The notes beneath the pieces were generated by a model. It made no database searches. It worked only from the letters and a program-made list of their open reading frames with translations, and was not told the DNA's origin. Positions 2,656 to 13,654 of a DNA stretch of 15,341 bases are shown in pieces (positions within the stretch are counted from its first letter, which is position 1; each line of letters opens with the position of its first letter). The stretch covers positions 1 through 15,341 of the forward strand of contig JAFTBT010000077.1 in NCBI GenBank assembly GCA_017455085.1, read 5' to 3'. A program made the position numbers and the translations under genes. The DNA is from Synergistaceae bacterium (GTDB lineage: Bacteria > Synergistota > Synergistia > Synergistales > Aminobacteriaceae).

Positions 2656-2735
2656 TCATACGTGGCATTATCCACAAAATCATGTGCACATCGGAGGTAA
2701 GTAATCACACATGGCATTATTCGCAAAGTTACGTG
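2653..2735 (+). repeat. Imperfect direct duplication of the ftsY 5' end
   Basis: Bases 2653-2686 and 2702-2735 match at 27 of 34 positions without gaps. The second copy holds the real ftsY start (ATGGCATTATTCGCAAAG); the first has GTGGCATTATCCACAAAA. The first copy therefore opens a 12-codon frame from GTG 2662 that ends with TAA at 2698-2700, overlapping the ftsY ribosome site CGGAGGT. Whether this short frame is translated is not known. Confidence 0.75.
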
Positions 2736-3637
2736 AAAAGCTGAAGGGTGTTCGCGAAAAATGGAGCGGAGGAATAGCGAGGCTGTTTTCTTCGGCAAAG
2801 ATAGACCCGCAGTTTTGGGATGAACTGGAGGAGCAGTTAATCACCGGAGACACCGGCATAGACTTCACCGAAAAAATCATAGACTTCCTGAAGAGTGAGG
2901 CCAAGACCAAACGCATCACATCAGCGGAGGAACTCAGGGGAATTTTCACCAGCAGGATAGTTGATGAACTGAACTCAGTGCAGGGAATGGGGCAGGAGTT
3001 CTCGCTCACGCATAAGCCCATAGTACTGCTGATGATCGGCGTGAACGGAAGCGGAAAAACTACCTCAGCAGGAAAGCTCGCGATGATGTACAAGCGTCAG
3101 AAAAAGAGTGTCATTCTCGCAGCAGCAGACACCTTCAGAGCCGCAGCAGTCGACCAGCTCAAAATTTGGGGAGAACGTTCCGGAGTCAGAGTCATCGCTC
3201 AAGGTCAGGGCAGCGACCCCGCAGCAGTTGCCTTCGACGCGTGGAAGGCAGCAGAGTCCTCGAAAGCTGACGTGCTTATCGTCGACACAGCAGGCAGACT
3301 CCACGACAAGCATAATCTCATGGAGGAGCTCCGCAAGATTCACAGGATACTATTACGCGAGGCAGGGCAGGACAGACTCGAAACAGTGTTAGTGCTTGAT
3401 GCAGTATTAGGGCAAAACTCAGTGGCTCAGGCTGAGACGTTCAACAGCATAATACCAGTAACGAGCATCATACTCACCAAGTACGACAACACAGCAAAAG
3501 GCGGCGTAGTCATCTCCATTGCTGAGAAACTGCATGTGCCAGTTAGGTATATAGGTCTCGGCGAAGGAATAGACGACCTGAATACGTTCAGCCCCCAAGA
3601 ATTTGCGAGTGCATTGATGTCCAGTGAGCAGGCCTGA
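2711..3637 (+). CDS. ftsY: Signal recognition particle receptor FtsY
   Basis: SRP-family GTPase that docks SRP-ribosome complexes at the membrane and passes nascent chains to the translocon. 308 residues: a basic amphipathic start (1-25), the N domain (about 30-90), then the G domain with P-loop GVNGSGKTT (110-118), DTFRAAA (140-146), DTAGR (192-196), G4 TKYD (256-259) and the closing GLGEGIDDL (282-290). It lacks the long acidic A domain of enterobacterial FtsY, so membrane contact probably relies on the N-terminal helix. Two family-typical positions differ: TKYDNTAKGG where TKLDGTAKGG is usual, and LDAVLGQN where LDATTGQN is usual. The nucleotide-binding residues are intact. The start is the ATG at 2711 behind CGGAGGTAA, 12 bases away. 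The next gene begins inside its 3' end. Confidence 0.97.
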   Translation: MALFAKLREKLKGVREKWSGGIARLFSSAKIDPQFWDELEEQLITGDTGIDFTEKIIDFLKSEAKTKRITSAEELRGIFTSRIVDELNSVQGMGQEFSLTHKPIVLLMIGVNGSGKTTSAGKLAMMYKRQKKSVILAAADTFRAAAVDQLKIWGERSGVRVIAQGQGSDPAAVAFDAWKAAESSKADVLIVDTAGRLHDKHNLMEELRKIHRILLREAGQDRLETVLVLDAVLGQNSVAQAETFNSIIPVTSIILTKYDNTAKGGVVISIAEKLHVPVRYIGLGEGIDDLNTFSPQEFASALMSSEQA

Positions 3638-11068: not shown

Positions 11069-11103
11069 GTCCCCCTTGTGTGAGAGCAGGGGGGAATGTT
11101 TTT
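11069..11103 (+). terminator. Rho-independent terminator behind the kinase/regulator operon, probably bidirectional
   Basis: The stem TCCCCCTTG (11070-11078) pairs with CAGGGGGGA (11087-11095), nine pairs with one G-T pair and an 8-base loop, followed by ATGTTTTT. It starts 7 bases after the regulator stop. The opposite-strand gene stops at 11105, so on the - strand the same hairpin sits directly behind it, followed by a weaker U-rich run (ACTCTTTCTC). Confidence 0.85.
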
Positions 11104-11104
11104 G

Positions 11105-11596
11105 CTACTTCAGGAAATCCGGGCCGAAGCTGATAGGGAAAAGCTGCTCAAGAGTCATCTCTATGTAGTCATCTTCGGACTTGGCCATGATCACAAGCAC
11201 ATTCTTAGGGTCTCCGAACTCGCGCATAACCTGAAGGCATATTCCGCATGGTGCAGCGTATTCGGTGACGACGTGGTTTGCTCCGCCAATGACGGCAACT
11301 GCACGTATGGTTCTCTCGCCTTCAGCAACAGAATGGAAAACAGCGTTACGTATCGAGCACAGACTGGCAGCATACGAAGCATTCTCCACATTTACGCCGG
11401 TGTATACTTTTCCTGAACTGCACAGGACAGCCGCAGACACGTTGAAGTGTGAATATGGAGCGTATGAGTTTTTCTGAACGGCCAGAGCTGACTTGATGAG
11501 TGATGCTCGGTCGACATCATCGAAGCCTGCTGTGTGTGAAAAAGCTGCTGAGGTGAATGCTAATAACATGAAGACTGCTGCAAGATATTTTCTCAT
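11105..11596 (-). CDS. Exported cytidine-deaminase-fold protein lacking the catalytic glutamate
   Basis: 163 residues. Residues 25-155 follow the homotetrameric cytidine deaminase family closely: NSYAPYSHFNVSAAV (43-57), GVNVENASYAAS (67-78) with the substrate-binding N69 and E71, and PCGICLQVMREF (116-127). Zinc ligands C80, C117 and C120 are present. The usual C-A-E-R motif reads C80-S-I82-R, so the proton-shuttling Glu is Ile, and the R of the usual CRQ is L121. Deamination is therefore not expected, although zinc and nucleoside binding could remain. The N-terminus (MRKYLAAVFMLLAFTSAAFS) is a clear signal peptide, which normal cytosolic deaminases lack, and no start codon exists between residue 10 and the mature domain. 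AAGGAG is 11 bases before the ATG. A sequencing error would have to change several bases, so real divergence is likelier. Confidence 0.85.
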   Translation of the reverse strand: MRKYLAAVFMLLAFTSAAFSHTAGFDDVDRASLIKSALAVQKNSYAPYSHFNVSAAVLCSSGKVYTGVNVENASYAASLCSIRNAVFHSVAEGERTIRAVAVIGGANHVVTEYAAPCGICLQVMREFGDPKNVLVIMAKSEDDYIEMTLEQLFPISFGPDFLK

Positions 11597-11621
11597 TTGG
11601 TATCACTCTCCTTGATGAGTA

Positions 11622-11649
11622 AGCATACTACAGAAAAGTCCAGCGTCAA
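11622..11649 (-). promoter_or_regulatory. Likely sigma-70-type promoter for the CDA-fold gene
   Basis: On the - strand TTGACG (11649-11644) and TATGCT (11627-11622) are separated by 16 bases and lie just upstream of the ribosome site AAGGAG (11613-11608). Confidence 0.5.
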
Positions 11650-11978: not shown

Positions 11979-13475
11979 ATGGTCAATCACGAACTTAACA
12001 GGCTGATAGCTTTCGCAATGTATCATCAGCTAATCACTCCCCAAGACAAAATCTGGGCGGCTAACTCACTGATTGGGATTCTGGGTATTCACTCGTTCGA
12101 GCCTGAAGACATCACAGAGACCTTCACCAACTCTCCCGACTCCATACTCGCGAAGATTCTCGACTGGGCCGCAGAAAATCACCTCATCGAGAACACAGAG
12201 ACAGAGCGCGATCTCCTCGACACCGAACTCATGGGTGCACTGACACCCAGACCTTCGGACGTGATAGACCGTTTCGAGTCGTTGAGGGCAGACTCTCCCG
12301 TGAAGGCCACCGACTATTTTTACGGTTTAGGAGTCTCGTCAAACTACATCCGTTCCGAACGCACAGCAAGAAATATCTGCTGGAAGTCATTAACAGATTT
12401 CGGAGAACTCGACATTACCATAAACATGAGCAAACCGGAGAAAGATCCCAGAGACATCGCGAAGGCCAAGACCATCAAATCCACAGGCTACCCGAAATGC
12501 TTACTGTGCAAGGAAAACGAAGGCTTTTACGGACACCATGCACACCCTGCCCGCCAAAACATCAGGCTCATTCCAGTAACACTAAGCGGACGTGATTGGT
12601 ACTTCCAGTATTCGCCGTACAGCTACTACAACGAGCATTGCATTGTGCTGGATGGGAATCATGTGCCGATGCTGATATGCCGAGAGACGTTCGAGAATCT
12701 GTTTGCGTTCGTCACGGAGTTTCCGCATTATTTTGTGGGGTCTAACGCTGATTTGCCGATAGTGGGAGGTTCGATTCTGTCACACGATCACTATCAGGGA
12801 GGGCGTTATGTCTTCGCGATGAATACTGCTCCGTATGAACGTGAATATGAGTATTCGGATTCTGATGTGAAGATTGGGCGTATCAAGTGGCCGATGTCTG
12901 CGGTACGTCTGAGTTCACGAGACCCGGAAAAACTCACAGCCCTTGCGGATAAGATTCTGGGTGCGTGGCGTGAATGGACTGACGAGAGCGTGGGAGTCCT
13001 TGCGTATTCTGACGGTGAACCTCACAACACGATCACTCCCATTGCGAGGAGACGGGGCGAAGACTACGAGCTGGACTTAGTTTTGCGCAACAACAGGACC
13101 AGCGAGGAACACCCATTAGGAATATTCCATCCACATGCAGAAGTTCACCACATCAAGAAGGAGAATATCGGGTTAATCGAGGTTATGGGCTTGGCGGTGT
13201 TGCCTGCGAGGCTGAAGAGTGCGCTTGAGAGGATATGTGCTGCGTGGCTTGAGGGAAAAGAGAGTCTACCTTCGGAGCTTGAGGCACATGAAGTTTGGTA
13301 CAGAGGTTTGCGGAAAAAGCATGAAGGGCTTTCTGGGGAGGACAGAGTCAGGCAGATGCTGCGGGATGAAGTCGGGCATGTGTTTGCGCAGGTACTCACT
13401 GACAGCGGAGTCTACAAACGAACTCCTGAAGGTGTGGCAGCATTCGACAGATTCATAACGTGTGTGTTGGCTTAA
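11979..13475 (+). CDS. galT: UTP/UDP-glucose-hexose-1-phosphate uridylyltransferase, class II (Firmicutes-type) GalT
   Basis: 498 residues, the usual length of class II GalT, which is not closely similar to the E. coli type. In the Leloir pathway it exchanges UMP between UDP-glucose and galactose-1-phosphate. Visible family features: KIWAANSLIGILG near the N-terminus, the CLLC pair (174-177) in YPKCLLCKENEGFYGHHAHP, NEHCIVLDGNHVPM (218-231), and the core GGSILSHDHYQGG (263-275) holding the histidines expected of the uridylylated active site. The ATG at 11979 is chosen from its ribosome site. It is the first gene of the galT / epimerase-like / Rpn unit. Its C-terminal tail (AAFDRFITCVLA) is repeated twice downstream. 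Neither galactokinase nor UDP-galactose epimerase is in the window. Confidence 0.95.
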   Translation: MVNHELNRLIAFAMYHQLITPQDKIWAANSLIGILGIHSFEPEDITETFTNSPDSILAKILDWAAENHLIENTETERDLLDTELMGALTPRPSDVIDRFESLRADSPVKATDYFYGLGVSSNYIRSERTARNICWKSLTDFGELDITINMSKPEKDPRDIAKAKTIKSTGYPKCLLCKENEGFYGHHAHPARQNIRLIPVTLSGRDWYFQYSPYSYYNEHCIVLDGNHVPMLICRETFENLFAFVTEFPHYFVGSNADLPIVGGSILSHDHYQGGRYVFAMNTAPYEREYEYSDSDVKIGRIKWPMSAVRLSSRDPEKLTALADKILGAWREWTDESVGVLAYSDGEPHNTITPIARRRGEDYELDLVLRNNRTSEEHPLGIFHPHAEVHHIKKENIGLIEVMGLAVLPARLKSALERICAAWLEGKESLPSELEAHEVWYRGLRKKHEGLSGEDRVRQMLRDEVGHVFAQVLTDSGVYKRTPEGVAAFDRFITCVLA

Positions 13476-13654
13476 TCCCCCTAACCCAGCGGCAGAAGTC
13501 AGCATTAACAACATGGCACTGTTCGACAGATTCATAACGGGCGTGTTGGCTTAACCCCTAAACCAGCGAAGAGATTATCACTAACAACATGGCAGCATTC
13601 GATCGCTTGGCACGCCATACTTGGCACAGATTCATAACGGGAGTATTAGCGTAA
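13434..13654 (+). repeat. Triplicated galT 3' tail
   Basis: Three copies in the same orientation: the true galT end (13434-13475), 13512-13554 and 13588-13654. The last nine codons of galT and copy 2 differ only at TGT/GGC. Copies 2 and 3 share 25 of the last 29 bases, and all four differences fall in third codon positions and are synonymous (ggc/gga, gtg/gta, ttg/tta, gct/gcg). The spacer CCCCTAA-x-CCAGCG and TAACAACATGGCA is also repeated. Copy 3 carries a 24-base in-frame insertion with two TTGGCA words. Copies 2 and 3 begin with ATG (13513, 13589) and end with TAA but have no ribosome site, so they are probably not genes. Confidence 0.85.

Follow-up and report, generated by a model that had tools for sequence, protein, structure and literature searches.

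The window analyzed here, a stretch of 15,341 nucleotides, carries on its reverse strand (11105..11596) a gene with an ATG start that encodes a protein of 163 amino acids, a putatively exported cytidine deaminase (CDA) homolog without the catalytic Glu. The list of open reading frames, Pfam and NCBIfam agree on this gene: its product scores 51.1 bits against PF00383 (cut-off 25) and 122.7 bits against TIGR01354 (cut-off 113.65), and human CDA (1mq0) aligns with residues 39-162 at 104.1 bits. In the latter alignment C80-S81-I82-R83 lies under C-A-E-R and PCGICLQ under PCGACRQ. By sequence, the protein has the tetramer-type CDA fold, with the catalytic Glu and the Arg of CRQ both absent. Read on the reverse strand, the place of the Glu is taken by Ile82 (codon ATA, 11351..11353, from the alignment and the codons themselves) and that of the Arg by Leu121 (CTT, 11234..11236); the predicted zinc ligands Cys80 (11357..11359), Cys117 (11246..11248) and Cys120 (11237..11239) are all kept, and so is the family N-x-E motif as Asn69-Val-Glu71 (11384..11392), of which we take Asn69 and Glu71 to be the ribose-contacting residues of the CDA family. 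Residues 1-20 (11537..11596, reverse strand) are a predicted Sec signal peptide, in which direct reading shows basic residues at the start, then a hydrophobic core and finally A-x-S. A sequence-only reading of this stretch had reported the CSIR and CLQ motifs, the three cysteines and the signal-peptide-like start, and the open reading frame, the two domain libraries and the 1mq0 alignment bear out each of them.

Upstream of the ATG, direct reading finds a ribosome-binding-like AAGGAG (11608..11613, reverse strand) and, beyond it, there is a promoter-like TTGACG-16-TATGCT (11622..11649, reverse strand); promoter-like matches number 2 against 2.0 in shuffles, a count not above chance and thus no evidence by itself. 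Terminator-like sites number 3 against 0.7 in shuffles, and one of them, a hairpin at 11070..11095 on the forward strand with a weaker one on the reverse strand (11086-11071), lies between the CDA gene and a convergent response-regulator gene. That flank holds a hybrid histidine kinase together with the response regulator; the other holds a GalT-like protein, whose gene is divergent from the CDA gene, and a DUF4432 protein. Since its neighbor is convergent on one side, with the hairpin between, and divergent on the other, the CDA gene is probably transcribed alone. As for the host, it looks like a member of the Synergistaceae: the window encodes an FtsY (2711-3637) that shares 93% identity with P0150, a partial FtsY named Synergistaceae, and 86% with another such FtsY, P0155. 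In 40 of the genomes behind the 80 loci described below, full-length FtsY matches all stayed at or below 50% identity. Synergistaceae are two-membrane cells. Elsewhere in the window, its edge (1-338) is a tandem array of 8.7 copies of a 39-base unit that also has a 117-base period. The neighboring genes at 729-2087 and 2110-2655 encode proteins whose C-termini are alike over a stretch of 78 residues (46% identity) and whose acidic N-termini are unlike each other. Finally, a 79-base direct repeat in two copies with 84% matches (13443-13594) covers the last part of the GalT-like gene and the intergenic space up to the DUF4432 gene.

The N-terminus is very probably a Sec signal peptide that would take the protein out of the cytoplasm, and this part of the sequence-only reading is supported by sequence features and hydropathy. 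The loss of the Glu is hard to reconcile with catalysis. In the deaminase family this residue is the proposed proton shuttle (PMC8216470), and, judged by that established role, the window protein is very likely dead as a deaminase. By descent and fold it is a CDA; as an enzyme it is without the residue that defines one, the catalytic Glu being gone. The AlphaFold2 model (from a 45-row alignment) has a mean pLDDT of 87.3, with 112 of the 163 residues at 90 or above, and consists of a low-confidence helix at residues 2-20 followed by a well-predicted CDA domain; prediction is poorest in the active-site loop, where residues 75-77 have pLDDT below 50. When this model was compared with the PDB, the first 42 structural matches listed were all CDAs, with TM-scores by target of 0.79-0.89.

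To place the protein among its relatives, we have employed the best 120 of the 4773 homologs found with the window protein itself (P0001) and the best 120 of the 7656 found with a profile built from 17 Glu-less proteins, so the counts that follow describe the near neighborhood and not all CDAs. The resulting census set comprises 154 proteins including that of the window, with one (P0254, gapped at position 82) standing outside both classes. The Glu is kept in 126 of the 154 and lost in 27, where it is Ile in 23 and Val in 4. This tabulation of residue 82, which the sequence-only reading had called for, gave an association with an export-type N-terminus: a hydrophobic N-terminal segment is present in 27/27 of the Glu-lost proteins against 65/126 of the Glu-kept ones (hydropathy threshold 1.2; Fisher 3e-7, the rows being related), and an earlier, smaller set at a threshold of 1.6 gave 20/20 and 46/101. 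The closest relative listed, P0002, comes from another source and is 93% identical (12 of 163 residues differ), and it too has CSIR and CLQ. Because a different sequence shares these motifs, a base-calling or sequencing error at residue 82 can be ruled out. Among the matches listed, the next nearest relatives, P0003-P0007, are 77-82% identical and have a similar N-terminus with Glu and CRQ kept. The situation that would have refuted the sequence-only reading, namely homologs with this signal peptide that without exception keep CAE, does not arise, since P0002 lacks it, even if P0003-P0007 retain it. More generally, N-termini with basic first residues, a hydrophobic core and an A-x-A/S box are found in P0001-P0005, in P0007 and in a Selenomonadaceae set, P0006 beginning inside its hydrophobic core.

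N69 and E71 are kept in all 27 Glu-lost and all 126 intact proteins, and F51 in 26/27 and 111/126, respectively. The predicted zinc cysteines C80, C117 and C120 are retained in 126, 125 and 126 of the 126 intact proteins, and in 17, 4 and 27 of the 27 Glu-lost ones, 23 of which have Gly or Ser at position 117; all three persist in only three Glu-lost proteins, namely the window protein, P0002 and P0050. Arg121 is present in 126/126 intact and 25/27 Glu-lost proteins, being absent among the latter only in the window pair. Two individual variants may be mentioned: P0247 and P0249 have NAVE for CAER, with Asn for the first zinc Cys, Val for Glu82 and Glu as the next residue, and P0046, the sole Glu-keeper without Cys117, has CAER along with PGG for PCG and is possibly a recombinant of intact and dead forms. 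Predicted models of both kinds of protein agree with CDA structures. Among 80 loci from named genomes the Glu is lost in 4 (L005, L006, L008, L011) and kept in 76. Three of the loci (L029:7860-8417, L038:3741-4289 and L052:1653-2210), from MAGs labelled Bacteroidaceae, Prevotellaceae and Treponema, encode intact-motif CDAs with an apparent lipoprotein signal, a hydrophobic stretch ending in Cys, which suggests that export of intact CDAs may recur. As to a link with phages or defense, no relative was found in viral contigs, and PADLOC gave no match for the 4 proteins submitted.

Trees made from 124 columns, the catalytic ones left out (open forks 50/110 and 26/61), group the window pair with P0003-P0007 (support 99/97) and place the other Glu-lost proteins apart from them, in the midst of proteins that are Selenomonadaceae wherever the source is named. 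Forcing all 27 losses into one clade costs 60.5 log units and is rejected (p-AU 0.0114), whereas a single clade of the 25 that remain without the window pair is compatible with the data (p 0.48), with the groups in both tests defined by residue 82 and named after an earlier tree had been seen. A single origin of the loss is thus rejected, and there have been at least two independent ones; P0050 and P0247/P0249 could stand for further events or could share an origin with the others. Since the Glu loss recurs, the finding is stronger than the sequence-only reading stated. A single base change turns either Glu codon into one for Val, and two are needed for Ile; the codon at residue 82 is ATA both in the window gene and in 6/6 Glu-less genes examined.

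The Selenomonadaceae copies occupy a particular site. In ten genomes, all of the same family as G006 (a MAG labelled Selenomonadaceae), a CDA homolog stands directly downstream of glpC, the gene for a subunit of the anaerobic glycerol-3-phosphate dehydrogenase (glp gene names checked by NCBIfam on L008). The motif is intact at four of these loci (L002, L004, L007, L105) and lost at six (L005, L006, L008, L011, L104, L108). The next gene is glpK in 8/10; in L005 it is a gene of a nucleoside/nucleotide-kinase family, and in L108 the contig ends. A signal peptide is present in the intact L002 and L105 and absent in L004 and L007, which are also intact. In the L005 copy the frame is interrupted by a TAA immediately ahead of the mature domain, and this one of the six may be decaying or misassembled. 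The 22 core dead proteins all have Asp in place of Ser74 and all lack Cys117, and the window pair is without Asp74. In G005, G006, G008 and G010 the dead copy is the sole match to P0001; with P0024 as query, a second, weaker match appears in G005, G006, G008, G122 and G158, and G005, G006 and G010 each have three further PF00383 genes, so that an active partner may be present. A nucleoside-type protein, intact (L002, L004, L007, L105) or dead (L006, L008, L011, L104), sits here inside a glycerol operon, between glpC and glpK.

The genes do not appear to have drifted freely after losing the Glu. Over the mature domain, Nei-Gojobori dN/dS for the six Selenomonadaceae dead genes ranges from 0.077 to 0.300 (15 pairs), against 0.104-0.224 for the intact genes (10 of 15 pairs, the five involving L001 having been dropped for saturated dS). 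Codon models, judged on likelihoods only and with omega=1 fitted under whichever of eight kappa values did best, give lnL -1161.5 free against -1209.1 at omega=1 for the six dead genes, and -1234.1 against -1283.3 for five intact genes, L001 being excluded. This codon-level test concerns the parallel Selenomonadaceae clade only; the window lineage was compared at the protein level. There, 9 of the 12 differences between P0001 and P0002 fall in the mature part, and by a profile built from the remaining 152 proteins they have a mean log ratio of 0.12, as compared with -4.36 for random single-base changes. Only 1 of 20000 random draws was as mild, though one change gives 6.2 of the sum, and the nine sit at variable positions (p 0.008). 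The stem of the pair looks quite different. It has 13 changes, which both P0001 and P0002 carry and none of P0003-P0007 does. Eight of them are no more than 6 residues away from a zinc Cys, a zone that takes up 29 of the 135 positions (p 0.001), against 0 of the 9 later mature changes (Fisher 0.006), p-values that are only indicative because the 6-residue limit was picked after the list of changes had been seen. Changes private to P0003-P0007 are not clustered in this way (1/7, 1/4, 1/5, 0/1 and 1/4). The pattern in the window lineage is that of a burst at the active site, which may reflect a pocket that had become useless and was under relaxed constraint, followed by what would be renewed constraint. 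The sequence-only reading held that this is a preserved gene and not a decaying pseudogene; the protein-level constraint in the window pair and the dN/dS of the parallel dead clade both speak for that view. Retention of window-type proteins by purifying selection after the Glu loss is, on these comparisons, quite likely, and the dead-and-selected status of the exported CDA pseudoenzymes is well supported.

What might such a protein do? The reading that we favor, at about even probability when its last part is taken loosely, is that of an exported CDA-fold pseudoenzyme kept by selection and probably serving as a non-converting nucleoside binder. The ancestor, close to P0003-P0007, would already have been exported with its active site intact. 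Along the branch that led to the window lineage, Glu would have become Ile, Arg121 become Leu and the nearby motif loops been altered, with an end to deamination, and purifying selection would then have held the folded protein. The Sec signal peptide would send it out, into the periplasm if the host has two membranes, where it would use the retained ribose contacts to bind nucleosides, leave them unconverted and act as a holder or sensor. A nucleoside-type ligand, considered by itself, falls slightly short of an even chance: N69 and E71 are equally invariant in the intact proteins, and binding is therefore allowed and not proved, since their retention may be structural. With the ligand included, the whole succession of exported, dead, selected and nucleoside-binding is tentative. 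So is its extension to both lineages, namely that Synergistota and Selenomonadaceae (Negativicutes) each made an exported CDA into a periplasmic nucleoside-binding protein by changing Glu to Ile or Val, with cytidine or uridine held unconverted in a receptor, buffer or delivery role, and that these proteins would constitute a new class of nucleoside binder. The sequence-only reading had offered a nucleoside-binding or a zinc protein as the repurposed function; the former stays possible in the light of the invariant N69/E71, and the latter does not hold as a common theme. Zinc storage as the common role is rejected, and zinc is not the shared element, because 24 of the 27 Glu-lost proteins are without at least one zinc Cys, all three being kept only in the window pair and P0050.

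Several other explanations have to be weighed against the nucleoside binder. The exported CDA could have had a prior second, non-catalytic job, as a scaffold, an envelope partner or the receptor of another ligand; once catalysis became dispensable outside the cell, the dead forms would have kept only that job, without any nucleoside binding. The fold, the export segment and the operon site in ten genomes are common to intact and dead forms, and the zinc-ligand losses suggest that pocket chemistry is not what is being kept, but the persistence of the pocket residues N69/E71 and F51 is at odds with this account, which moreover has no identified partner gene, and we consider it rather unlikely. 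It is also conceivable that a periplasmic CDA is no longer needed and is simply being lost. The missing Glu and zinc ligands, the TAA in L005 and the active-site burst on the window stem are what one would expect of such decay. Nevertheless, the dN/dS of the dead set is in the range of the intact genes, omega=1 fits far worse, the tip changes in the window lineage are mild, and the export segment and domain persist in all 27 Glu-lost database proteins (although only open frames would enter a protein database), all of which makes decay improbable.

Neither of the two remaining alternatives seems attractive. The protein might be a changed enzyme, with the window zinc site doing other chemistry or with Asp74 of the Selenomonadaceae dead clade as a new acid/base group. 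The three cysteines of the window pair and the uniform Ser74 to Asp change in the 22 core proteins lend themselves to this, but the window pair no longer has Arg121 and no single site explains both lineages, because the pair is without Asp74 and every Asp74 protein is without Cys117; we regard it as very improbable. Least probable, to the point of being hardly credible, is a cytoplasmic CDA variant whose N-terminus is not a working signal peptide. The signal peptide was indeed judged by eye and by a hydropathy score, yet the same three elements, from the basic first residues to the A-x-A/S box, are seen throughout P0001-P0005, P0007 and the Selenomonadaceae set.

It is useful to set the favored reading, an exported and non-converting CDA pseudoenzyme, beside known systems. 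The tetrameric CDAs (TIGR01354; human 1mq0, B. subtilis 1jtk) are like the window protein in fold, zinc Cys triad, N-x-E motif and mature-domain length, and unlike it in that the window protein has an export-type N-terminus, Ile for the catalytic Glu and Leu for the CRQ Arg. Closer in their N-termini are the intact export-type CDAs (P0003-P0007; L002 and L105; the lipoprotein-like L029, L038 and L052), which join such an N-terminus to a CDA domain; unlike the window protein, they keep Glu and CRQ and so are presumably active outside the cytoplasm. The nearest precedent for the loss itself would be ADAT3/Tad3, which the tRNA A34 deaminase contains as its inactive subunit: Val replaces the same Glu and the deaminase fold is kept for a non-catalytic role (PMC8216470, PMC7713142). 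There too the proton-shuttle Glu has become aliphatic and the zinc site is kept, but ADAT3 pairs with an active ADAT2, whereas the window protein is small, has a predicted signal peptide and is without an identified partner; we draw an analogy and do not claim membership in an ADAT3-type system. Exported alarmone synthetases (PMC12691689) are a further case of a cytoplasmic-type nucleotide enzyme with a Sec signal peptide, but they have an unrelated fold and are catalytically active. In a chiefly open-access literature, no exported or dead CDA is described among the titles and abstract openings listed.

There is also a practical side to these proteins. The automated annotation "cytidine deaminase" would be wrong for the Glu-lost genes, because 6/6 of the Glu-lost proteins submitted to NCBIfam pass the cut-offs of the "cytidine deaminase" equivalogs NF004064 and TIGR01354. 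A bacterial CDA gene is taken as a predictor of the breakdown of cytidine-analogue drugs, and it is where it is used in this way that the misannotation would matter. If the interpretation given here is true, the Selenomonadaceae, in which the same place in an operon holds an intact copy in some genomes and a dead one in others, offer a natural experiment on an enzyme becoming something else. In that case, cells have on at least two occasions disarmed a textbook salvage enzyme after its export had evolved, while selection kept the protein.
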